A stretch of DNA of 64,000 nucleotides from Bacteriovoracaceae bacterium (GTDB taxonomy: Bacteria > Bdellovibrionota > Bacteriovoracia > Bacteriovoracales > Bacteriovoracaceae): assembly GCA_024711325.1 (NCBI GenBank), contig JANJTC010000005.1, positions 186,001 to 250,000 on the forward strand, written 5' to 3'. The position numbers were made by a program, and so were the translations under genes. Shown piece after piece: positions 39,871-52,644 of this stretch. The notes beneath the pieces are model-generated. The model saw nothing but the letters and a program-made list of their open reading frames with translations. It was not told the DNA's origin and searched no databases. How positions within the stretch are numbered: position 1 is the stretch's first letter; every line of letters starts with the position of its first letter.

Positions 39871-40785
39871 ATGAATAAAATCATAAAAGTAGTTTCATCC
39901 CTTTTGCCTTTTGGCCCTATGGATGCCATAGGCGTAGGTGTAATTGATTTTGAAAATAAAAGCTATGAGGCCTTCGAGGCCAATTACTTTGAAACAGAAG
40001 TTAAATTAAAAACCGAACCGACACTTTATTTTGACCTGGCTTCTTTAACAAAACCGCTGACAAATTCCCTGGCATACTTTCTGAGACCAGATGCCTTCGA
40101 TCCCAACCTTCTTTTATGCTTAAATCATCGCGCTGGCCTACCTTCATGGGGAATTCTTCCTCGACAAGGATGGCAGGAACAGATTCTTAGCTACCCTGTA
40201 AAAGAATCTGAAACGCTCTATTCAGATTTCTCTGCTTTAAGAGTGACACTGGAACTTGCTAAAAAAGGCATTGATCAAAAAAAAATCTGTCAGGATGTCT
40301 GGGATAAGGAAACTCTTTACTGGACCGATTTACCACCTTGGTACCCAACTTTACAGTTTGGTTTCAAGAGAGGATTTCCTAATTTCGGTGAAGTTCATGA
40401 TCCTAATGCCTGGACGATAAAAAAGTTTTGCAGTCATGCCGGATTATTCTCTACGGCCGACGGCCTCTGCCGGACGCTACTTAATTACCAGGCGAAGACT
40501 GATTTTATTTCCCAAGTTAAATCTGAAATGGTGAAGAGTCATAACCGCTTTGTCTATGGTTGGGATCGGGTGATCAATCCTCAAGAAACTCTGGCAGGCC
40601 TTGGTTGTGGTCCCCATACTTTTGGCCATTTAGGTTTTACAGGAACTTCCATTTGGATTGATCCGGATCAAATGAAGGGCCATATTATTCTCTCTAACTC
40701 CACGAAATTTCACTGGTTTGATAAGGATAATCTCAATCATATTCGGCGAGCCGTGGGCGAGCTGGTCTGGTCGGGATCTTACTAA
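39871..40785 (+). CDS. Serine beta-lactamase-like (class C fold) hydrolase
   Basis: Three motifs of the penicillin-binding/beta-lactamase fold are visible: SLTK (58-61) as SxxK, YSD (117-119) in the YxN position and HLGFTGTS (253-260) as the HxG strand. There is no signal peptide, so it is probably cytosolic like many EstB or PBP4*-like esterases. The 304 residues make a short version. It starts 18 bp after ppdK. Substrate unknown. Confidence 0.82.
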   Translation: MNKIIKVVSSLLPFGPMDAIGVGVIDFENKSYEAFEANYFETEVKLKTEPTLYFDLASLTKPLTNSLAYFLRPDAFDPNLLLCLNHRAGLPSWGILPRQGWQEQILSYPVKESETLYSDFSALRVTLELAKKGIDQKKICQDVWDKETLYWTDLPPWYPTLQFGFKRGFPNFGEVHDPNAWTIKKFCSHAGLFSTADGLCRTLLNYQAKTDFISQVKSEMVKSHNRFVYGWDRVINPQETLAGLGCGPHTFGHLGFTGTSIWIDPDQMKGHIILSNSTKFHWFDKDNLNHIRRAVGELVWSGSY

Positions 40786-40817: not shown

Positions 40818-43127
40818 GTGATAATCCAGACCTTAAGACTTTTTACAGCTATTTTTCTGCTGCAATCACCTGCCTTTGGCGGTGATGAAGCTCTTATCCA
40901 AGCTGTTAAATTTGCGAATCAATCAATGAGGGAGATTCCTCAGCAACTTTCGGAATCATGTTCTGAGCAAAGTTTAGAGCGGGCCTGTCCTCAGGTATTA
41001 CAAAAGAGCTTTCAAGAAATTTATCGCAAGGGAACAGCTGGAACAATTAATGCCATTATTTCAGATGGTCATCTAAAAAATCCCCGTTCGGTTTGCTCCA
41101 GCAGTGCTGCGTATGTTCAGAAAGTAGATATCCAAAAACTTAATCATCAGCTTCAAAAGAATTTCCCGGAAAACCCTCAGCTCTTTGAATTTACCCAAAA
41201 CTGTTCAAGAGGCGCCGATCAATTCATAAGTCGGGAATTTAGTAAAACTGATTTAAATATGGCCCAGGCCTATATGGCCTATGATTTTAATATTAAGAGT
41301 GAGGCCATCAAACAGGCGATGAAGGACCTATTGGATTCAAATGCCCAAATCAGTCTCATCATTCCTGGACCTAAACCTAATTGTAATGAATTTCTCTTTG
41401 GGAAAGTGAAAGATCATTGCCTGGAACTCAATCAATGTCAGAGTCCTGCAAGTAAAGAACACTTTCTGAAAGTAAAAACGGAAGAAGTTGAAATGGCCTT
41501 AAAGGCCCATCAACTATTGCAAAAAGAATATAACAAACTAATGGATGGCACAGGGAAACTTAGTTCTTTGAATCGACAGGAGGCCCGGGTAATAGAAGAA
41601 GATATGGAAAGGATAAAAGAGCTAAGTCCTCTTCTTAAAGGCGAGAAGTTTAAAAAGCTTCTGAAAGTTAAGTCTTCACAAAAAGAGATCCAGGATGCCG
41701 TTAAGGGCCAATTACAGATTTCACAAAATGAAATTAATAAAAAACTAAAAGAATTTAACGGTGCCTATTCATGTTTAAATGGCACTCGCCAAGACTGTGA
41801 TAACTTTGATCATGTGATTAAGCAGGCGCAATATCAAAATCGTGGAACAATTTATCCGAATGCAAAGGAGCTCGCTTTTACTTCTACTCTTCACCAGTGC
41901 ACGGAGAGTGTAAAAGAGGCCCGTAACGATGCAGATGTCATCTTAAACGATGCCGGAATCAATCTGGCCTTAACATTAACTCCCTATGCAATAGTCAATG
42001 GAGTTAAACTTGCAGCAACTCTGGCCAGAACGGCCAGCATCACTTCCAAAGTTACCCGTGCCGAGAACCTTACTGCTAAAACAGGGCTTGCTGCCAATAT
42101 TGGATATGGTGGTTATTATAATTTAAAGGAATTTGATCAGTGCCAACAAGAGATTAAAGAATTTGGTAAACTAGGGGCCGGTCAACATAAAATGTCCTGT
42201 GAGAACATGGACCGTATTCTTGTGAATAACAGTAATAATGCCCGATGTATTACTCAAGCGCTTATTTCTGCGGCCCTTATGACTCCCATGGCAGCTGAAA
42301 GTTTACGGCTTGCCAGGCATTTACCAAAAGTTACACTACCTCATTCGGAGATCAACGCCTTAACTTCCAAAATCAGATCTGGTCAGAGTCTATCTAAGAG
42401 TGAAGAGCTGCTCCTGTTGAATAAACTAAAAGAAAAAAATCCATTGGAAAAACTCCTGGTGAAAGGAGTTTCCCCGGCCGATAAAAGTTTTGCGACACAG
42501 ACGCTGGATAAACTTTTTCTGAAGCAAGATGTTTCTCCTCAGGACTTAATCAAGCTTTCCAAATTAATAAAAGAAAGAAATCCGCCCTTACTCATCATCA
42601 CCAGACAGGATAATGTGGATGATATTATGAACTCTGGAAAAATTTGGGGTAGTACTGAAGGCAGTGTCTACGCGGCCGCAAGACCGGCCGAAACCAAATG
42701 GGATAAAGTTAAAACTGGAGTCTTTGGAGATAAGGAAGGAACATTCATTTTTACTCCTGAAGCAGCAGGTCTGTTTAAACCCCATGAGATCACCGGTCTC
42801 TATAGTGGATTAAAAAATGCGGCCGGACAGTATAAAGGACCTTTTGGAGATATTGTCATTGAGAGTTCAAAGAAAACTATCATTGACGGGAGACCCTATA
42901 TTGTCATTACCAAGGCCCGACGGGCCGGAGCGGCCGGTGAAGATTTGCATAGTGGACAAAATAGTGCCCAGGCCGCAGCCAGATTGGCCGGTAGAAGAAT
43001 TGGTTTGGATCCGTTAGTCACAGGCACGACTGCTATTACTTCCATACAGGCCGCGAGTGTTTTTACGGGGGTTAGCGTCAGCGATATCTTATTGGAATTA
43101 TTTTCAGATCCACCAACTCAACCCTAA
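40818..43127 (+). CDS. Large secreted protein with toxin-like C-terminal domain
   Basis: The 769 residues start from GTG with a Sec signal peptide (about 1-21, cleavage after AFG). The long N-terminal part (22-370) is helical, Gln/Lys-rich and has paired Cys. It is followed by a hydrophobic stretch (about 378-410, ALTLTPYAIVNGVKLAATLA) and a linker. Residues about 588-700 form a compact domain with pattern IMNSGKIWGSTEGSVYAAA, then EGTFIFTPEAAGLFKPHEI and AAGQYKGPFGDIVI. From memory this resembles ADP-ribosyltransferase-type C-terminal domains of polymorphic toxins, such as the TreTu group. No immunity gene is seen on either side. The resemblance is unverified. Confidence 0.6.
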   Translation: MIIQTLRLFTAIFLLQSPAFGGDEALIQAVKFANQSMREIPQQLSESCSEQSLERACPQVLQKSFQEIYRKGTAGTINAIISDGHLKNPRSVCSSSAAYVQKVDIQKLNHQLQKNFPENPQLFEFTQNCSRGADQFISREFSKTDLNMAQAYMAYDFNIKSEAIKQAMKDLLDSNAQISLIIPGPKPNCNEFLFGKVKDHCLELNQCQSPASKEHFLKVKTEEVEMALKAHQLLQKEYNKLMDGTGKLSSLNRQEARVIEEDMERIKELSPLLKGEKFKKLLKVKSSQKEIQDAVKGQLQISQNEINKKLKEFNGAYSCLNGTRQDCDNFDHVIKQAQYQNRGTIYPNAKELAFTSTLHQCTESVKEARNDADVILNDAGINLALTLTPYAIVNGVKLAATLARTASITSKVTRAENLTAKTGLAANIGYGGYYNLKEFDQCQQEIKEFGKLGAGQHKMSCENMDRILVNNSNNARCITQALISAALMTPMAAESLRLARHLPKVTLPHSEINALTSKIRSGQSLSKSEELLLLNKLKEKNPLEKLLVKGVSPADKSFATQTLDKLFLKQDVSPQDLIKLSKLIKERNPPLLIITRQDNVDDIMNSGKIWGSTEGSVYAAARPAETKWDKVKTGVFGDKEGTFIFTPEAAGLFKPHEITGLYSGLKNAAGQYKGPFGDIVIESSKKTIIDGRPYIVITKARRAGAAGEDLHSGQNSAQAAARLAGRRIGLDPLVTGTTAITSIQAASVFTGVSVSDILLELFSDPPTQP

Positions 43128-43150: not shown

Positions 43151-43192
43151 TGTATTGATGGTGATACATTTGTTTGATATATCAAACAAATG
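43151..43192. promoter_or_regulatory. Palindromic operator, copy 2, overlapping a start codon
   Basis: The core TGTTTGATATATCAAACA (43171-43188) extends here to a perfect 26-bp palindrome at 43167-43192. Its last three bases are the ATG of the PepSY gene. The flanks ATACA (43164-43168) and TGTATTG (43151-43157) repeat those at 11477-11490. There is no room for a leader or SD, so transcription may begin at or next to the ATG. A bound regulator would block it. Confidence 0.78.
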
Positions 43193-44269
43193 AAGAGAAT
43201 CATCCATCAGCTACATCTTTGGCTCGGTTTAACCAGCTCCCTCATCCTTTTTCTAATTTGTCTCAGTGGAACTATTCTTACTTTTCAGCATGAAATTGAA
43301 GAACTAATTCATCCTGAGACCTATCACCTTGCCCCTCAAACTTCCCGCCGCCCTTTGCAGGTGGATGATCTTATTCATCAGCTTGAAATCCATTCAAAAG
43401 GAAAAGTTTCCAGCTTCACCATTCCTTCCGTAAAAGATCGTCCTTATCAATTCATTGTAAAAACAAAACCTACTGATCGCCGCGGAAGGACTCATTATAT
43501 AAACCCTTATAACGCTGAAATATTAAATAATCCGGATTCGAGGTCAGAGTGGTTCTTTCTCTTTTTCCGGATGCACCGCTGGCTTCTCTTAGATCCTGAG
43601 ATAGGGCGACCCATTGTTGGCGTGGCCACCATAATTTTCACATTTCTTCTTTTAAGTGGACTGTATTTATGGTGGCCTAAAAACCCTGTTCATTTGAAAA
43701 ATTCCTTAAGGATAAGATTTAAAGGGAACTGGAAGCGTATTAATTACGATCTTCACAACTCAATGGGATTCTATTCTTTGGGAGTTCTTTTAGTGATGTC
43801 TTTGACTGGTCTATTTTGGTCCTTTGAATGGTATCGGAATCTGGGTTCAGCTGTTCTGCAGACAAAAGTTTTTGATCATGGAAGTAAGCCTTTAGAAGTT
43901 CCTTCTTCCGGTACGAAGCTACCTATTTCTGATGTTCTGAATAAGCTCCCTCCAGAAGGTAAGACCACGGTGGTATTACCTCAAAATGAAGGGTCTGCTT
44001 TAACAGTTTTTAAATACACTGAAGGAATGTTTATCATTTCTTCCAGTGATAAATTTGAACTGGATCCGTATTCTGGAAAAGTTCTCAAACACCAAAAATT
44101 CAGTGATAAACCTTTAGGTCAGAAAATAGCCTCTCTTATCAAGCCTCTTCATACCGGGGAGTTTATGGGGATTATATCTAAAAGTATCTATTTCATTACT
44201 TGCCTGATTGGTACATCACTACCCATTTCAGGTTTTTTCATATGGTTTAATAAAAAAAATAGCAGTTAG
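43190..44269 (+). CDS. PepSY-associated transmembrane protein (PiuB/ferric-reductase-like)
   Basis: The 359 residues start with the typical IIHQLHLWLGLTSSLILF segment, followed by a periplasmic PepSY-type domain, a His-containing membrane helix pair (LFFRMHRWLL and NYDLHNSMGFYSLGVLL) and a C-terminal helix after KPLHTGEF. The His residues inside or beside helices suit heme binding. Members of this family often accompany siderophore or metal uptake. The start codon overlaps a 26-bp palindrome and lacks an SD, so regulated and possibly leaderless expression is likely. Confidence 0.88.
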   Translation: MKRIIHQLHLWLGLTSSLILFLICLSGTILTFQHEIEELIHPETYHLAPQTSRRPLQVDDLIHQLEIHSKGKVSSFTIPSVKDRPYQFIVKTKPTDRRGRTHYINPYNAEILNNPDSRSEWFFLFFRMHRWLLLDPEIGRPIVGVATIIFTFLLLSGLYLWWPKNPVHLKNSLRIRFKGNWKRINYDLHNSMGFYSLGVLLVMSLTGLFWSFEWYRNLGSAVLQTKVFDHGSKPLEVPSSGTKLPISDVLNKLPPEGKTTVVLPQNEGSALTVFKYTEGMFIISSSDKFELDPYSGKVLKHQKFSDKPLGQKIASLIKPLHTGEFMGIISKSIYFITCLIGTSLPISGFFIWFNKKNSS

Positions 44270-44438: not shown

Positions 44439-44768
44439 ATGAAAAAATTTATAACAGCGCTTTTGATTATGGGATCTTTTCAGGCCTTGGCCGCTGATAT
44501 CACCCTTTCACCAGTGTATACAGTGGTAGAAGTTGTAAGGTCAGTTCTTGTCACTGCACTTTCTCCATTCGCTTCAACTACAGCTTCTGTTCAAGCTAAA
44601 GAGCAAATGGCTGCAGTTCGTACGGACGCCCTGAACTTCTTGGCAGATGAATCTGAAGCTTCAGAAATGCTTTCAGCTTCTATCCAGGCACTACGTTCTG
44701 AATTTCAGGAACTAAATGGAATGTCTGATAAGCAGATTGCCGCCTTGATTGTATCTGCTGCTGAATAA
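44439..44768 (+). CDS. Small exported DUF2388-like protein, 109 aa
   Basis: A signal peptide (MKKFITALLIMGSFQALA) is followed by about 90 mature residues, helical, with AKEQMAAVRTDALNFLADES and LSASIQALRSEFQEL. The order fits the small DUF2388 family of pseudomonads as I remember it; function unknown there. ACAGGAG lies before the ATG and a strong terminator follows, so it is its own transcription unit. Confidence 0.75.
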   Translation: MKKFITALLIMGSFQALAADITLSPVYTVVEVVRSVLVTALSPFASTTASVQAKEQMAAVRTDALNFLADESEASEMLSASIQALRSEFQELNGMSDKQIAALIVSAAE

Positions 44769-44789
44769 TCTGATTTTTAAATCTTGCCA

Positions 44790-44822
44790 AAGAAGGCTCC
44801 TTAACAGGAGCCTTCTTTTTAT
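44790..44822 (+). terminator. Rho-independent terminator
   Basis: The 11-bp perfect stem AAGAAGGCTCC/GGAGCCTTCTT with loop TTAACA is followed by T residues. Confidence 0.93.
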
Positions 44823-44935: not shown

Positions 44936-46789
44936 ATGAAAGCTACCTTTCTGATTTTCCCAGCTTTGATCCTGATAAATGCCTTTAGTGCATTTGCAGA
45001 ATTTGATTTAAAGATCGTTAATCCTAATGAGGAATCGCATTTCCAATCGGCCTTGAAGGAAATTAAGGCTGATTTGCCAGAAGAAGTCAAAGATACCCTT
45101 GATCGTGAAATTATCATCAAATTCTCGCACTTAAATGAAAAGCATATTGAGCAATTCAGCGAAAATTGCACAGAAAAGCTCACTCTGGCCAAGGTCAGAA
45201 GAAGGAATCAGTCCTTAATCGAAGTTGACTACGTTCACATGTCCGAATGGAATAAGCCGCTACGTAAAATATCCTGTGCTCATCCAACGAATCATCAGTA
45301 TGTGAAAGCAACTATCATTCATGAAATTTTTCATCTTTATGATAACCAAAAAAAGCTATCTAAAGATAAGTCCTTTTTAAACCTGGCCGGTTTTGTGGCC
45401 CAGGGACTTGTGATAAAGAGTAGAACGAATTTAAATCAATTAGAATCACGCTCCCCAGATCGTTATGAATTTAAAAACTCGACTGAAAGCATTGCTGTTA
45501 ATTTTGAGCACTTTATTTACGATCCTAGCTATAAATGCAGAAGACCGGTCTATTATGATTATCTAGCGGAGAAACTAAAGGTCACACCACATTTAGATTC
45601 AAATTGTGAGAGTAATAAAAAGATCACGATGTCTTCTCAGGGAGTAGAGGGAAGAGTGATGACCCGGTCTTTGGATATGAATCGGCTTTATCAGGTTCAT
45701 TACTTGTTTGCTGGGAAAGGCGAGGCAGTGATGAGTCGCTGGGGCCACTCCATGTTCAGACTAGTGATGTGCGCTCCAGGTAAAGAAATTGGTCCTTCGT
45801 GCCTTAATGATATTTCTCACCATATTGTTATTAGTTTTCGTGCCAACATAGAAGATTTGAAGATGGATTATGCAGACGGCATAAAAGGCAAATATCCTTC
45901 GATGTTATTCTTTTTATCCCTTACAGATGTTCTGGAAGAATATAACAAGGGCGAGTTCCGGGAAGTGTTTTCTCTTCCGTTGAACTTAACCGATGAAGAG
46001 AAAGAAAGATTCCTGCTAAGAAGTACTGAGATGTACTGGAGCTATAAAGGTAAATACTACTTCTTCACAAATAACTGTGCTTCAGAATCTATGAATTTGC
46101 TTAGAGTGGCCCTGAAAGATCATTCTAAGGTTCAGACTAAAAATATTAATACTCCACTTGCGATGTACAACTATCTAATTAAATCCAAAATAGGCGATGC
46201 ATCTGTCCTGGAGGATAAAGCACTGGCCATAAGCAAGGGCCTTTACTTTCCATCTGCTGGTGAAAAGCTGGGGCCTTCCATGGAAGCATTAGGTCTTAAA
46301 AAAGTGAAATTTGCCAAATTTGTTGAAGATAATGATTCTCTAAAAAGAAGATCTTTGTATGAGGCTGCCTTGGCCAAATCCACCAATAAAACTAAAACCG
46401 CTGCCAATGCCTTACGGTTAGAAGATCTGATCGTAAAATCTTTAGAAATCCGCTTCACCAAAGAATTAGGGGCTAAAGTTTTTGGAGATGAACCTGATCC
46501 TAGACTTAAAGATAGTGATTTAGCAGAAAAAATCATCATCATACAAAAACTTTATAAAGAACTTTCTGCCGAAAATTATATTAAAGCGGGATATGGAATA
46601 CCTCTGGAAGAGGAATTTTCAGAAATTCCCCAGGAAAAGATTGATGAAGTCCTGCTTCAACTTAAAAATCACACCAATGACATTAAAACCATTGCCGAGA
46701 CACTACTATTAGAAGAATTAGGTGAACTTAAAGAGGCAATGGAGAATCGAGTGCGCTTATTAAATATTATTATTGAAAGCAACAGATAA
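44936..46789 (+). CDS. Exported HEIFH zincin-like / DUF4105 protein
   Basis: The start is placed at the ATG at 44936, which begins a signal peptide (MKATFLIFPALILINAFSAFA); an in-frame ATG at 44867 has none. The N-terminal region contains HEIFH (129-133), a HExxH zinc-peptidase motif, with STESIAVNFEHF (about 183-194) possibly holding further ligands. A DUF4105 (Lnb N-terminal periplasmic) domain follows from about 250: GKGEAVMSRWGHSMFRLV and FFTNNCASESMNLL (Cys 381), a likely Cys-His thiol-hydrolase core. The final 150 residues are helical. It is followed after 17 bp by an App1-like phosphatase gene. Confidence 0.8.
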   Translation: MKATFLIFPALILINAFSAFAEFDLKIVNPNEESHFQSALKEIKADLPEEVKDTLDREIIIKFSHLNEKHIEQFSENCTEKLTLAKVRRRNQSLIEVDYVHMSEWNKPLRKISCAHPTNHQYVKATIIHEIFHLYDNQKKLSKDKSFLNLAGFVAQGLVIKSRTNLNQLESRSPDRYEFKNSTESIAVNFEHFIYDPSYKCRRPVYYDYLAEKLKVTPHLDSNCESNKKITMSSQGVEGRVMTRSLDMNRLYQVHYLFAGKGEAVMSRWGHSMFRLVMCAPGKEIGPSCLNDISHHIVISFRANIEDLKMDYADGIKGKYPSMLFFLSLTDVLEEYNKGEFREVFSLPLNLTDEEKERFLLRSTEMYWSYKGKYYFFTNNCASESMNLLRVALKDHSKVQTKNINTPLAMYNYLIKSKIGDASVLEDKALAISKGLYFPSAGEKLGPSMEALGLKKVKFAKFVEDNDSLKRRSLYEAALAKSTNKTKTAANALRLEDLIVKSLEIRFTKELGAKVFGDEPDPRLKDSDLAEKIIIIQKLYKELSAENYIKAGYGIPLEEEFSEIPQEKIDEVLLQLKNHTNDIKTIAETLLLEELGELKEAMENRVRLLNIIIESNR

Positions 46790-46806
46790 ATTAAAAGGTA
46801 TTTTTC

Positions 46807-47562
46807 ATGAAAAAACTTATACTCCTTTCACTACTGGTATCCTTTAACTCCTTGGCGGGAATTCAAATCATCAGTGATTTGGATGATACAATAAAGATCA
46901 CCAATTCAGGTAATCTCTGGGAGTCAATTGGCTATGGAAGTGCTCGCAGAAAAGTTTACGCTGGAATGCCGGAATTTCTGGCCGCTTCACGCTCTTATGT
47001 GAATGCCTTGAATGTCATATCTTCTTCACCTCGAATTTTGAAGTATCAGGTTAAAAACCTTCTTAGAAAACATGAAATTCAAACTGAAAACATAGTATTA
47101 AACCGAAACTTCAATCGTCCCGGACATACAGAATATAAGACGAATGCGATTAAAGCTATGCTCGAGGCTTCTACCGACAATTTTATTCTTATGGGAGATG
47201 ATGTTGGAGAAGATCCGGAAATTTATGATGCTATCATTAAACTTTACCCATCCCGGATTCTGGCCAGTTATATTCACATTGTAAAAAATCGTACCGTCCC
47301 AGCAACCGCCATCAAATATTTTACGACGCTTGATCTTGCCATTTTGGAGCATCAAGCTGGTCGTCTGGCCGAAGAGAATGTTAGTGATGTCATCAATTCC
47401 ATCTTCAATGTCCGTGAATTAGAATCAGTTTTTCCTGAATTTTCCTATTGCCCTACGGAACGTTCGAATAATGCATCGTTTAGAGAAGCATCATATTCTG
47501 CTGATGCGTCAGCTCTTAACAATAAACTCACTGAGTACTGCTTACATGAATGGGATGATTAA
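46807..47562 (+). CDS. Exported App1-like HAD phosphatase, copy 1
   Basis: A signal peptide (about 1-17, ending SLAG) is followed at once by DLDDTIKIT (24-32), the DxDxT nucleophile motif of HAD enzymes in the DUF2183/App1 family. App1 of yeast is a phosphatidate phosphatase. Later motifs are VISSSPR (motif II) and MGDDVGEDPEIY (motif IV). The C terminus has two Cys. AAAAGG precedes the ATG. A paralogue lies 1.1 kb downstream beyond an alpha/beta hydrolase. Confidence 0.85.
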   Translation: MKKLILLSLLVSFNSLAGIQIISDLDDTIKITNSGNLWESIGYGSARRKVYAGMPEFLAASRSYVNALNVISSSPRILKYQVKNLLRKHEIQTENIVLNRNFNRPGHTEYKTNAIKAMLEASTDNFILMGDDVGEDPEIYDAIIKLYPSRILASYIHIVKNRTVPATAIKYFTTLDLAILEHQAGRLAEENVSDVINSIFNVRELESVFPEFSYCPTERSNNASFREASYSADASALNNKLTEYCLHEWDD

Positions 47563-47644
47563 AAAGACAAAACATTTAAAATAGGTAAAATAATGTCGTC
47601 ATTGAAGACTTCATTATGAATCAAAACTTTTCAAGGAAGATAAA

Positions 47645-48622
47645 ATGTTACCCCTTTTCCTGGCCAGTCTCATCAGTTTTGCACTTGCTGCTTTTAAACC
47701 TCTCGATCCGGAGTTAAAGAATTATCCTTATCCTTTTCCTGTCGAGTTTCTTGAGGTCAAAGTCAAAAATGAAAAGTATAAAATGGCCTACATGGATCTC
47801 AAACCTGAGGGCCAGATTAGAGGAAATATTCTTCTCCTTCATGGGAAAAATTTCTCGGGAAACTATTGGGAGAAAACAGCTAAGGATTTAGTTAAAGAAG
47901 GTTATCGGGTCCTTATGCCGGATCAAATAGGATTTGGAAAATCCAGTAAACCTGAAATGTTTCCTTATACCTTTCAATTATTGGCCACTTTCACTCATAA
48001 ACTCATGAGTCAGCAAAATTTGAAGAAATATATTGTGGTAGGGCATTCCATGGGAGGCATGCTGGCAACCAGGATGGCCTTAATGTACCCCGAAGAAATT
48101 CAGAAGCTCATTCTGGTTAACCCAATTGGTCTGGAAGATTGGAAAACACTGGTTTCTTATAAACCAGTGACCGAACTTTATCAGTCAGAGCTGAAAAACA
48201 ACGAAGAGAAAATCAGGAATTACCAGAAGGCCAGTTATTTTGATAACAAGTGGAAAGCTGAATATGAAAAGGGAATTGAAATCCTGGTTGGCTGGACCAT
48301 GCATAAGGATTATCCCCGCATAGCCTGGAATGCTGCCTTGACCGCAGATATGATTTTTACCCAACCTGTTGTCTATGAATTCAAAAATCTGCAAATGCCA
48401 ACCTTGCTCCTCTTAGGCACCAGGGATCGTACGGCCTTAGGTAAGGGCTGGGCTTCTGCTGAAATCAAAGAGCAAATGGGCCGCTATGACCTATTGGGGA
48501 AAGAAGTAATAAAGAGCATCCCTCAAGGAACATTAGTGGAGCTTCCGGGGCTAGGGCATATGCCGCAGGTCGAAAATTATGATCTCTATTGGAAGAATTT
48601 ATTGGCATTCATCAAAAAGTAA
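47645..48622 (+). CDS. Exported alpha/beta hydrolase
   Basis: An N-terminal hydrophobic signal (LFLASLISFALAA) is followed by an alpha/beta-hydrolase domain: oxyanion-region LLLHGKNFSG, nucleophile elbow GHSMGG, acid in LLLGTRDRTALG and His in LPGLGHMPQVE. The triad is complete. It lies between two App1-like phosphatase genes and may release acyl chains or other esters. AAGGAAG is a good SD. Confidence 0.87.
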   Translation: MLPLFLASLISFALAAFKPLDPELKNYPYPFPVEFLEVKVKNEKYKMAYMDLKPEGQIRGNILLLHGKNFSGNYWEKTAKDLVKEGYRVLMPDQIGFGKSSKPEMFPYTFQLLATFTHKLMSQQNLKKYIVVGHSMGGMLATRMALMYPEEIQKLILVNPIGLEDWKTLVSYKPVTELYQSELKNNEEKIRNYQKASYFDNKWKAEYEKGIEILVGWTMHKDYPRIAWNAALTADMIFTQPVVYEFKNLQMPTLLLLGTRDRTALGKGWASAEIKEQMGRYDLLGKEVIKSIPQGTLVELPGLGHMPQVENYDLYWKNLLAFIKK

Positions 48623-48641
48623 GAAGTTTAAAGTTTCGTAT

Positions 48642-48671
48642 ATGACAGGAATTAGTTCTAATTCCTGTCAT
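48642..48671 (+). promoter_or_regulatory. Perfect hairpin burying the next start codon
   Basis: Two 13-base arms (ATGACAGGAATTA and its complement) enclose the loop GTTC. The first two bases of the ATG at 48670 are the last two of the right arm. The AGGA that could act as SD (48647-48650) lies in the left arm. Folding would hide both. Confidence 0.75.
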
Positions 48672-49431
48672 GAAAAATTTTATTTTTACCTTCCTTGTTT
48701 TCTTTTCCTTAAACACCTTTGCTTCCATTGCCATATTGAGCGATTTAGATGACACCATAAAAATAACTCAATCCAGCGGCAGTGTGGGAGATTTATTAGG
48801 AGATAAAGTTTTTACGGCCATACCGGATTTTTTCCGGGCCACAAAAGACTACTCCAATGAATTGCACGTTCTTTCGGCTTCACCAGAACTCATCCGGGGC
48901 CATGTCACTCATGTCTTACATAAGCATGTTATCAGGTTTAAGAGCCTGACTTTAAGAGAAAGTATCCTGGAAGATAAATTCGATTTTAAATTACGTGAAA
49001 TTAAACGCATCCTGGACGCGAGTACTGATGATTTTATTTTAATTGGTGATGATTTAGGGGAAGATCCCGAGGTTTATAGCGCTATTGCCGGCCTTTATCC
49101 TAACCGTATTCTCGATGTATACATCCGGGTTATTAATGGCAGGCCTTTAAAAAAGAAAAAATCCCTCACCACCTATTACACTAGTTTTGATCTTTTCTTA
49201 AGAGAGTATGAGGCAGGCCGAATGGGTTACAGTTGGGTCAAGACGGCTTTGGATAAGCTGATAAAAGAAGTTAGAACAGAGTATATCTTTCCTAAAAAAG
49301 CTAAATGTCCTACCACTTATCATGTGTGGCAGTGGCAGTATGAGACCGATTTTTCTAACGATGCCCGTGCCCTGGTCCAGAAACTCACAGCTGCCTGTAG
49401 AGTAAGACAGTCAGTTAATATTCTCCCGTAA
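48670..49431 (+). CDS. Exported App1-like HAD phosphatase, copy 2
   Basis: A paralogue of the gene at 46807 with the same layout: signal peptide (about 1-18), DLDDTIKIT (25-33), VLSASPELI (motif II), STDDFILIGDDLGEDPEVY (motif IV) and a Cys-containing end. It lacks a normal SD, and its ATG sits in the right arm of a perfect 13-bp hairpin, so translation may be controlled. It belongs with the preceding hydrolase and phosphatase genes. Confidence 0.84.
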   Translation: MKNFIFTFLVFFSLNTFASIAILSDLDDTIKITQSSGSVGDLLGDKVFTAIPDFFRATKDYSNELHVLSASPELIRGHVTHVLHKHVIRFKSLTLRESILEDKFDFKLREIKRILDASTDDFILIGDDLGEDPEVYSAIAGLYPNRILDVYIRVINGRPLKKKKSLTTYYTSFDLFLREYEAGRMGYSWVKTALDKLIKEVRTEYIFPKKAKCPTTYHVWQWQYETDFSNDARALVQKLTAACRVRQSVNILP

Positions 49432-49493
49432 AACTCTTCAATCCTTATTGCAGTCTGCTAGAATAGTAGCACGAACTGTAAAAAGGAATGTGA

Positions 49494-50942
49494 ATGGATC
49501 TCTCGAATCTGATCTCTCAAGAAGAGTTAATTAAACGTAGTAGGCAGATAAAAAAAGTTTTTTTCTATCGGATTTGTGGGGCCGGCATGGGACCTGCTGC
49601 TGTGTTGGTTAAACAAGCGGGCTACGATGTGCATGGTGCTGACTCAGCTTTTTATCCTCCAATGAGCACTTTTCTGGAAACAACCGGAATTCCTTTATTT
49701 AAGTTAGAAGAAGCCACTCCTGAATTTCTGAAGCAATATGATTTAATCGTGGTTGGTAATTCTGTTTCTGGCAAAGCCGAAGTGGCGCGAATGATTGAGA
49801 AGGTGGGAGTGCCCTTTACTTCATTCCCTTCCGCACTTGGGTCACTGGTACTTAAAAACAAGAACGTAATTGGTATCGCCGGGACTCATGGCAAGACCAC
49901 TACGACCTATTTCATGACTCAAATGCTGGAGAAACTGGGACAGAATCCAGGGTACCTTGTAGGTGGTATTATTGAAGGGCGTGAGCCTGCCAAATTAGGT
50001 GATAAGTACTTTGTCATTGAGAGTGATGAATATGATTCCGCTTATTTTCATAAAATTTCCAAGTTTCGTTTATACGAATTAAAAAGCATGATTTTAACTT
50101 CACTTGAGTTTGATCATGCCGATATCTTTTCTTCAGTTGAAAAAATTGAAGATGAATTCAGAGATGTCATTCCTGGTATGAAATCAACCCTGATTTTTAA
50201 CCAAGAGTATGCCTCCGCCATGAAACTTTTTAATGAATACTTCGGTAAGAATCCCGAGCAGAAGTGGTACCTCTATGGCGAAGGTTCGGAAATTGGTCCT
50301 CACGATGTCAGAACTTTTGAAAATGGCTCCAGTTTCACTTTAATTTGGAAGGGCGAGAAAGTGTCTTTCGAATCAAGTGTTATCGGTCAGCATAATGTTC
50401 TTAACCTTGCCAGTTGTGTGATCTTCCTCTTGTCCGAGGGATTTTCAATTACTGACGTTCAAAAAGCATCCCTGGAAATTGGAATGGTAAAACGTCGTCA
50501 GGAAGTACGTGGAAGATACCGGGATATGGTAGTGATTGATGATTTCGCCCATCATCCACGGGCCATCACTGTGACCTTAGATGCTATTCGTGCCCGTTTT
50601 AAAAATAAAAAAATTATCACTATCTTCGAACCGATATCGGCGACTGCCCGGAGTGCTATTTTTCAAAGTGAATTCAGGGATTCACTGGCACTGTCAGATA
50701 AAGTGATTATTGCGAAGGCGAGCATTCCAACGACTGCAATAAATGGCAAAGATCTGGATGTGGATAAGCTGGCCCGGGAAATCTCCGGAATGGGGAAACC
50801 AACAGTTTGTGTCAGTAAGCTCGAAGAATTAAGGCACACTATCGATGAGAGCGCAGATAAGGATTCAGTTCTATTGGTATTAAGTAACCGCACCTGTTTA
50901 GGACTTTGGGAGTCGAACTTTGTTCAAGAACTTAAGACTTAA
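49494..50942 (+). CDS. mpl: UDP-MurNAc:L-Ala-gamma-D-Glu-meso-DAP ligase
   Basis: Mpl joins recycled murein tripeptide to UDP-MurNAc. A Mur-ligase of 482 residues with an N-terminal nucleotide-binding start (YRICGAGMGPAAVL), P-loop AGTHGKTTTT, VIESDEYDSA, LEFDHADIF and VIDDFAHHPRAI. The ESDEYDSAYF stretch and the missing MurC-type sequence point to Mpl rather than MurC. AAAGGAA precedes the ATG. The presence of Mpl indicates meso-DAP peptidoglycan recycling, matching mltD. Confidence 0.93.
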   Translation: MDLSNLISQEELIKRSRQIKKVFFYRICGAGMGPAAVLVKQAGYDVHGADSAFYPPMSTFLETTGIPLFKLEEATPEFLKQYDLIVVGNSVSGKAEVARMIEKVGVPFTSFPSALGSLVLKNKNVIGIAGTHGKTTTTYFMTQMLEKLGQNPGYLVGGIIEGREPAKLGDKYFVIESDEYDSAYFHKISKFRLYELKSMILTSLEFDHADIFSSVEKIEDEFRDVIPGMKSTLIFNQEYASAMKLFNEYFGKNPEQKWYLYGEGSEIGPHDVRTFENGSSFTLIWKGEKVSFESSVIGQHNVLNLASCVIFLLSEGFSITDVQKASLEIGMVKRRQEVRGRYRDMVVIDDFAHHPRAITVTLDAIRARFKNKKIITIFEPISATARSAIFQSEFRDSLALSDKVIIAKASIPTTAINGKDLDVDKLAREISGMGKPTVCVSKLEELRHTIDESADKDSVLLVLSNRTCLGLWESNFVQELKT

Positions 50943-52644
50943 GAGTCTTTACCTCACACTTTTTTGCTTCTCACTCAACTCATGCGCTCACTCTGTAAAG
51001 TGGGAGGGGAAGATTTCTGATCACGCCTCTTCTTACCAGAAGGCGCTAAAAAAGTTTAACAGCAAGATTTGTGTGCCAAAAGCTGAAAGCATTTTTGAGC
51101 AGTACCTCAGGGATTACCGTGGGCAGGGTTACTGGATTCCGGAACTTAATGAAGATGTGGATGTTGAGAGCATTAAGGCCTTACTTCCGCAGATGGAAAA
51201 AAAACTTGCCTGGATCAAAAATCAAAAAGAGCAGGTTAAGAAAAAGCCTTTTCCTAAAAATGCTGTAACAGCAAATGCTAAAAAAATCCTGAAAGAGCTT
51301 CTGGATCTAAAAAAGACGGAATTGAACACTGATGAAGAAAAAAAAGTGGCTTCCCGTAAGGCATCATTAAAGCTTTTAAGTCGCTTGCTCAAGACCTATG
51401 AAAAACTGGTCACAGATGTTTCCTTTCTTTCTAGTTTTCAATATCCGGTGGATCATCTGAAAAACCGTAAGGTCCATGATGGATTTAGGGACAAAGAAGA
51501 CCTTGAGTCTGTGAAGATAGCCAATTACACTTTCCTTTACAGGAAGCTTCTGGAAGACGGTGCTTACAATAAGGATCACACTGGTTCTGATATTTATCTC
51601 AGGACTACTCTGGATACTCTGCATTTTGAATTAAATTCTCATGGATTTTATCTAACTGAAGACGCTCGTTATGATTTGGATTTCGTCCTCTCTAAAATTG
51701 AATCAGAATTATCCAAAGGTAAAGATCGCATCATCGAGAGACTTACCGAATGGGAGCAAAGAACCGGAAGGACGTTGGATTTTTACCGTTCACTGACACT
51801 CCCCGAGAATCAAGTGCCTTCCATTGCCGGGGATAAATCCAGTACTGCCAATCGACAGCTCATTCGAGAGCATAATAAGGCGACCAATCGTTTGAAAGAG
51901 TTTGTTTATAGTAAACAAGCGGAAGTATATAATTACTGGCTTAATCAACCGGAATTACCCCGGGCCATTTTTGTTTTAGAAACGATCCTACTAAATGAAG
52001 TCGGAGGTGTTGATGGCGATGAAGCCTTGGAAAGAATGGATGTTGCCCGAGTGGTGATGAATCGTCTGGATAAACCGAAGTACTTGTCCATTGGGAATAA
52101 GGAATTCATTTATCCTTATCTGAAAAAAGTGACATCCGATTTTCATATAAAAAATGAAAGATGGCTGAATGCTTTATTTAAGCAGGGTGAGTTTTCTTTC
52201 ACTTATTATTATATGAGTGGAGTAGCGAAAATTTTCTGTCCAGACATGTCTCCTAATGCCAAAAAACTACGCAAAAAGAACGTGGAAATTGCCCTTCAGG
52301 TTCTAAAAGAGGAAAACACCTCCTTTCAAACCACCCGTTATTTTTCCCGGGCCAGTATGATCGGAAGGATCCATATGGACTCTATCTGGGAAGATTACAT
52401 TCCGTATCCAGAGCGACCGGGATTACTGGCAGAGGGTCAGGAGAGACTTTTAAGCGCTTTTAATAAAGGCGAATACACTTACCTTTATTCTTTTAAAGAT
52501 CCCGCCTTCGAGCTGTATCAGGTGGTTGAAATAAACGGTCGAAATTATGCTTTGGGTGAGAAAAACGGTATCAAACTCTTTTTTGGGCATCGTAATCCTC
52601 ACTATTTTAAATATTTCACCAAGACTGAAATTGGTCCTCAATAG
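50920..52644 (+). CDS. Lipoprotein with possible SleB-like cell-wall hydrolase region, 574 aa
   Basis: Starts with TTG inside the last 23 bp of mpl; GGGAG seven bases upstream supports it. The signal runs to lipobox LNSC (residues 19-22). A long helical middle (about 30-330, Lys/Glu/Leu-rich) precedes a region at about 350-470 with LLNEVGGVDGDEALERMDVARVVMNR, given here as LLNEVGG then DVARVVMNRL. This resembles the Glu-containing core of SleB-type hydrolases; that link is tentative. The coupling with mpl suggests a role in the wall. Confidence 0.7.
   Translation: MFKNLRLKSLYLTLFCFSLNSCAHSVKWEGKISDHASSYQKALKKFNSKICVPKAESIFEQYLRDYRGQGYWIPELNEDVDVESIKALLPQMEKKLAWIKNQKEQVKKKPFPKNAVTANAKKILKELLDLKKTELNTDEEKKVASRKASLKLLSRLLKTYEKLVTDVSFLSSFQYPVDHLKNRKVHDGFRDKEDLESVKIANYTFLYRKLLEDGAYNKDHTGSDIYLRTTLDTLHFELNSHGFYLTEDARYDLDFVLSKIESELSKGKDRIIERLTEWEQRTGRTLDFYRSLTLPENQVPSIAGDKSSTANRQLIREHNKATNRLKEFVYSKQAEVYNYWLNQPELPRAIFVLETILLNEVGGVDGDEALERMDVARVVMNRLDKPKYLSIGNKEFIYPYLKKVTSDFHIKNERWLNALFKQGEFSFTYYYMSGVAKIFCPDMSPNAKKLRKKNVEIALQVLKEENTSFQTTRYFSRASMIGRIHMDSIWEDYIPYPERPGLLAEGQERLLSAFNKGEYTYLYSFKDPAFELYQVVEINGRNYALGEKNGIKLFFGHRNPHYFKYFTKTEIGPQ

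Follow-up and report, generated by a model that had tools for sequence, protein, structure and literature searches.

App1-family phosphatase-like proteins encoded between SerH and mpl in Bacteriovoracaceae

Among the described systems closest to the locus reported here are yeast App1p, a member of the App1 family (PF09949) that is given as a phosphatidate phosphatase in the part of PMC12357310 citing Chae 2012, and the mpl locus for murein tripeptide recycling. We analysed a 64,000-nucleotide stretch of a genome from the Bacteriovoracaceae, of a bacterium related to predatory species (assembly GCA_024711325.1, contig JANJTC010000005.1, positions 186,001 to 250,000 of the forward strand; hereafter the window), in which two genes for App1-family proteins, App1a and App1b, lie in a slot bordered by SerH and mpl. 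Both proteins share with yeast App1p a HAD core with DxDDT, a Lys and GDDxxxD. Unlike the yeast protein, they are ~250 amino acids long and carry a predicted signal peptide and a C-terminal cysteine pair; moreover, phosphatidate activity is reported for App1p in that source, whereas for the window proteins it would be putative. With the mpl recycling loci the window has the pairing of mpl and SerH in common, to which other families add LdcA, but in the genomes compared a putative exported phosphatase between the two genes is found only in part of the Bacteriovoracaceae. The set-up is that of ordinary App1 family members with an unusual, stable genomic home. In the literature records covered, searches on APP1_cat, PF09949 and COG4850 returned no paper and DUF2183 appeared only in genome surveys, and records on the murein peptide ligase, phosphatidate phosphatase or peptidoglycan recycling of Bdellovibrio and Bacteriovorax contained nothing on the locus; bacterial members of the App1 family have apparently received little attention. 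The features central to the argument are the following (window coordinates).

39871..40785, + strand: SerH, beta-lactamase fold protein without signal peptide, 5' border of the slot (PF00144, 39.3 bits)
46807..47562, + strand: App1a, putative exported App1-family HAD phosphatase, probable older paralogue (PF09949, 66.8 bits)
48670..49431, + strand: App1b, putative exported App1-family HAD phosphatase adjoining mpl (PF09949, 61.1 bits)
49456..49464, + strand: extended -10 promoter-like motif TGCTAGAAT of mpl, 38 nucleotides before the mpl start
49494..50942, + strand: mpl, murein tripeptide ligase, MurC paralogue, 3' border of the slot

A first-pass annotation had singled out four adjacent genes, of which App1a and App1b are the second and the fourth. 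The open reading frames were found where it had placed them, on the + strand (44936-46789, 46807-47562, 47645-48622 and 48670-49431), separated by 17, 82 and 47 nucleotides; they lie within a longer stretch of genes on this strand that extends from PpdK (37195) to MetK (52758). Its description of an alpha/beta hydrolase with an App1-type HAD protein on either side agrees with the Pfam APP1_cat and Abhydrolase_1 matches. The catalytic motifs are intact, as it had stated, and were located as HEIFH, DLDDT, GDD and GHSMGG.

An App1 lineage at the SerH-mpl locus

Comparison of relatives revealed a stable frame consisting of PpdK, SerH, the slot, mpl, a lipoprotein gene and MetK. SerH is located 5' to mpl on the same piece in 24 of the 36 loci examined, the other 12 being accounted for by contig ends, by SerH not being found or being fused (in G009, to PpdK in one frame), or by mpl being missing. 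Six loci have an empty slot (G024, G014, G016, G035, G031, G033); in the others, App1 occupies it by itself, shares it with further proteins or is absent from an otherwise occupied slot. A profile (A3) of 23 App1 members was used to search 116 genomes of the order, and locations were assigned from mpl positions and gene maps. Of 40 matches with at least 211 bits, 39 map to the SerH-mpl locus, the exception being in G087. These counts include G002, where the contig edge comes after SerH and App1, G022, where SerH is present and mpl is absent from the assembly, G015, where 6 kb of opposite-strand genes separate App1 and mpl, and several loci in which SerH falls past the contig end. The weaker matches that were mapped are off-locus (g34, G079, G105 and a second copy in G087), apart from a second G108 copy at the locus. 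In total, eight genera carry a locus App1 (g1, g5, g10, g31, g33, g38, g55, g61), and the order SerH, App1, mpl recurred in genomes that were added after its initial description. Two copies at the locus were found in nine genomes, namely G000 (the window genome; 3.55 Mb, 7 contigs), its nearest relative G011, G003, G012, G005, G013, G034, G133 and G108; one copy is located 3' of mpl in G003, which thus has App1 on both sides of mpl, and one is 5' of SerH in G034.

A tree of 65 App1 proteins is consistent with common descent of the slot copies, as two label changes suffice for the 41 slot rows, compared to a mean of 19.7 upon shuffling; an earlier tree of 43 rows had needed four, the three rows that were interrupted or limited by contig ends being counted there as off-locus. 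App1a and App1b fall into separate subclades, that of App1a including copies of G003, G011 and G015, which indicates that they are not recent duplicates. App1 therefore probably entered the slot once and stayed there, in eight genera.

The catalytic motifs of the App1 proteins themselves are intact. Both exceed the curated cut-off of 27.1 bits for PF09949 (APP1_cat); App1a carries DLDDT at 46876, the K-containing motif at 47134 and GDD at 47194, and App1b carries DLDDT at 48742 and GDD at 49045. Eight residues (D25, D27, T29, K107, G126, D127, D128 and D132) are invariant in all 23 aligned App1 members, as are two C-terminal cysteines, which both window proteins possess. Ratios of non-synonymous to synonymous substitution rates (dN/dS) between G000 and G011 amount to 0.020 for App1b, 0.114 for App1a, 0.054 for the hydrolase and 0.053 for mpl, indicating purifying selection and thus functional genes. 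Export was assessed by a crude hydrophobicity and cleavage rule rather than a trained predictor; the N-termini of App1a and App1b show a basic n-region and small residues at -3/-1. A looser rule also flagged cytosolic proteins such as MetK, and its flags were left unused.

We estimate a probability of roughly 0.6 that App1a and App1b act, after export, as metal-dependent phosphomonoesterases of the HAD type, representing two ancient paralogues from a single lineage that settled between SerH and mpl on one occasion. In HAD enzymes the first Asp of DxDDT is the nucleophile, acting with Mg2+. Upon removal of the signal peptide, the HAD core would use the Asp nucleophile of DLDDT to dephosphorylate a phosphomonoester, either in the periplasm or extracellularly. 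It is the conserved catalytic residues together with the C-terminal cysteines that make this the most likely activity, while export, activity and substrate are all deduced from sequence features. The lineage would have settled in the slot most likely once in Bacteriovoracaceae and then been inherited there, the hydrolase and the DUF7844-Lnb protein of the four-gene run being later arrivals with probably independent jobs. With its position beside mpl in eight genera and its recurrent tandem copies, this lineage offers a good opportunity to find out what exported App1 proteins do.

Several observations weigh against this proposal. The A3 profile was built from locus members and favours locus matches, the fork that unites the slot rows has a support of only 89/74, and G105, whose copy falls inside this fork, carries it elsewhere in the genome. 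The persistence of App1 might be no more than a consequence of conserved gene order, which retains PpdK and MetK as well. Finally, an AlphaFold2 model of App1b from a five-row alignment had a mean predicted local distance difference test (pLDDT) score of 44 and was unusable, leaving the active-site pocket unseen. In the search of solved structures, the App1 sequence profile gave a single weak relative below E 0.1, the HAD phosphatase 3mc1 (E 9e-6).

Beyond the order, PF09949 was detected in two of 14 control genomes, Deinobacterium chartae and Corynebacterium glutamicum. A search of viral contigs returned no relative of App1a, and an App1b scan of genome contigs yielded three named loci, all from Bacteriovoracaceae. 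The window genome also has a third App1-family gene (L058, G000:C4:124679-125107), located away from mpl; relatives of this type occur in most family genomes, mostly as frames of ~360-390 amino acids scoring ~30-42 bits. An inverted repeat at 48642..48671 (+ strand; 14-bp perfect arms, 2-nucleotide loop) overlaps the App1b start codon. G011 retains it, and so does G008, where G-U pairs hint that an RNA hairpin may form around the start codon; G018 and G009 lack it.

Substrate and role of App1

Phosphatidate or lysophosphatidate is a plausible putative substrate, and we put a phosphatidate-like lipid at somewhat below an even chance. Another envelope or wall phosphate is unlikely, and a broad substrate range equally so; these grades are judged, not computed.

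Exported HAD phosphatases of other families serve phosphate scavenging, and App1 might likewise be a broad periplasmic acid phosphatase whose place was kept by chance inheritance. This would fit its faster divergence relative to the frame neighbours (identities of 42-48% for App1b vs 80-84% for mpl in G009 and G010). The strictly kept core residues, the cysteine pair and the low dN/dS of App1b suggest a more defined task, however, and we regard a scavenging role as unlikely.

Slightly less likely still is that App1 acts as a periplasmic partner in wall turnover, that is, dephosphorylates a wall-derived or polyprenyl phosphate for SerH-mpl recycling. Such a role would account for the persistence of App1 between SerH and mpl over eight genera, in which mpl identity drops to as low as 52%, for the copies on either side of mpl in G003, and for the wider context of the locus. 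In 13 loci from the phylum's other families (L052, L064-L073, L095, L096), SerH is invariably located within two genes 5' of mpl and adjoins it in nine, and a gene for an LD-carboxypeptidase-like protein precedes SerH in seven, one of the seven being the query itself. This arrangement suggests that SerH, mpl and LdcA form a murein recycling cluster in Bdellovibrionota and makes SerH a candidate murein-peptide recycling enzyme. The SerH-mpl cluster may hold more interest than the four-gene run that was noticed originally.

A functional tie between App1 and mpl is weakened by the promoter-like motif of mpl and by the fact that PpdK and MetK, whose functions have no relation to the wall, keep their order here too; in addition, many family genomes have SerH and mpl without App1. 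The 62-nucleotide gap between App1b and mpl lacks a predicted terminator, but mpl has a conserved extended -10 motif of its own, so that the two are probably not simple operon partners. The motif, TGnTAnnAT at -28 to -45 before mpl, is present in 21 of 24 genus g1 genomes, three of which have an empty slot, and in shuffles in at most 1 of 24 (300 shuffles), a contrast that overstates the case as the motif was chosen after viewing the sequences and the genomes are related. In the same interval it was not found before App1b (0/13), MetK (0/21) or SerH (0/15). As for mpl itself, its best NCBIfam match, TIGR01081, scores 281 bits, below the cut-off of 388.7, and a separate MurC (501 bits) is encoded at G000:C5.

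A more specific version, in which exported App1 would be specialised for phosphate derived from the wall or from carrier lipids alongside the LdcA-SerH-Mpl route of Bdellovibrionota, strikes us as quite improbable; if true, it would give the App1 family a function other than on phosphatidate.

Other residents of the slot and its surroundings

The remaining features of the locus are listed here.

40818..43127, + strand: putative exported 769-amino-acid slot protein, family unassigned, also in G011 and G008
43190..44269, + strand: PepSY_TM membrane protein, slot gene (PF03929, 238.7 bits)
44439..44768, + strand: small, putatively exported DUF2388-like protein, slot gene (PF09498, 19.6 bits, under the cut-off of 25)
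44789..44818, + strand: terminator-like hairpin 3' of the DUF2388 gene (13-bp perfect arms, 4-nucleotide loop, T-rich end)
44936..46789, + strand: putative exported two-domain protein, DUF7844 (HExxH) plus Lnb_N (DUF4105; His, NNC), by Pfam
47645..48622, + strand: alpha/beta hydrolase, secreted-looking, with Ser-Asp-His motifs (Abhydrolase_1, 95 bits)
50920..52644, + strand: lipoprotein-like protein of 574 amino acids, overlapping mpl by 23 nucleotides

The first-pass annotation took its four genes, App1a and App1b included, for a set of exported hydrolases. Signal peptides are convincing for the DUF7844-Lnb protein, App1a and App1b, and weaker for the hydrolase, the export of which is less sure because its start MLPLFLASLISFALAAF lacks a basic residue. 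In the DUF7844-Lnb protein, the HEIFH (window position 45320) and DUF4105 features are present (DUF7844, 106 bits; PF13387, 83.3 bits), DUF4105 now being named Lnb_N. The domain is one of the permuted NlpC/P60 enzymes, and a Bacteroides member is the lipoprotein N-acyltransferase Lnb, according to a 2026 paper (PMC12994826), which renders the label 'hydrolase' unsafe. With Lnb (NF051878) the window protein shares the permuted NlpC/P60-type His and NNC motifs, and domain match and His/Cys motifs place it in the Lnb_N superfamily; unlike Lnb, it bears an extra HExxH domain, and its genome encodes a canonical Lnt (200.7 bits) in addition to four Lnb_N loci. Its score against the Lnb equivalog is 14.8, compared to a cut-off of 550. 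All 11 aligned rows, which had been preselected for HExxH and N-x-C, retain HExxH with its downstream Glu as well as GH and NNC. The protein may thus join a metallopeptidase-like domain to an acyltransferase- or thiol hydrolase-like one. An apparent pseudogene of it in G011 was rejected, as runs of N coincide with the break points.

The hydrolase has GHSMGG at window position 48041, followed by the later D and H. Its best solved relative, 4f0j_A (E 8.5e-93), resembles it over nearly the full length and is named 'probable hydrolytic enzyme', a name that assigns no substrate. At the locus, the hydrolase occurs in six genomes (G000, G011, G008, G018, G009, G015).

That the four proteins evolved together as an exported set for breaking down the lipids of prey membranes, as had been proposed, is very improbable and not supported: the genes are adjacent, on one strand, have export-like starts and follow a terminator-like hairpin, and Lnb_N enzymes and App1 act on lipids in other systems as far as the cited sources go, but the full foursome is limited to G000 and G011, the DUF7844-Lnb homologue (>150 bits in 19 of 58 relatives searched) is located elsewhere in 17 of these 19 genomes and at this locus only in those two, and the nearest solved relative of the hydrolase is an unassigned enzyme, not a lipase. 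App1, by comparison, stays with SerH and mpl. This distribution suggests that the four genes are separate residents of a variable slot beside a cell-wall recycling gene; a run of plausible exported enzymes can reflect an inheritance pattern rather than a pathway.

Slot occupants besides App1 differ between lineages, and some lack an export signal. By Pfam, they include a TonB receptor, a TPR/porin protein, a glutamate synthase-like protein, an acyltransferase 3 and a Fic protein, and a Peptidase_M91-like protein falls just below its cut-off. The 574-amino-acid lipoprotein had been considered as a SleB-type wall hydrolase, which was dropped (Hydrolase_2, 12.9 bits; 2 of 10 members, best E 0.043), its SleB-like stretch being no more than suggestive. 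A search of solved structures found no relative of it, and an AlphaFold2 model from four rows had a mean pLDDT of 41 and was unusable; the gene is 3' of mpl in most family loci, and many residues of the protein are invariant. The 769-amino-acid protein has no Pfam match over cut-off, and its C-terminal part resembles ADP-ribosyltransferase-like domains by eye only. The hairpin at 44789..44818 is absent from the sites given by a terminator scan; judged by its structure, a new transcription unit probably starts at the DUF7844-Lnb gene.

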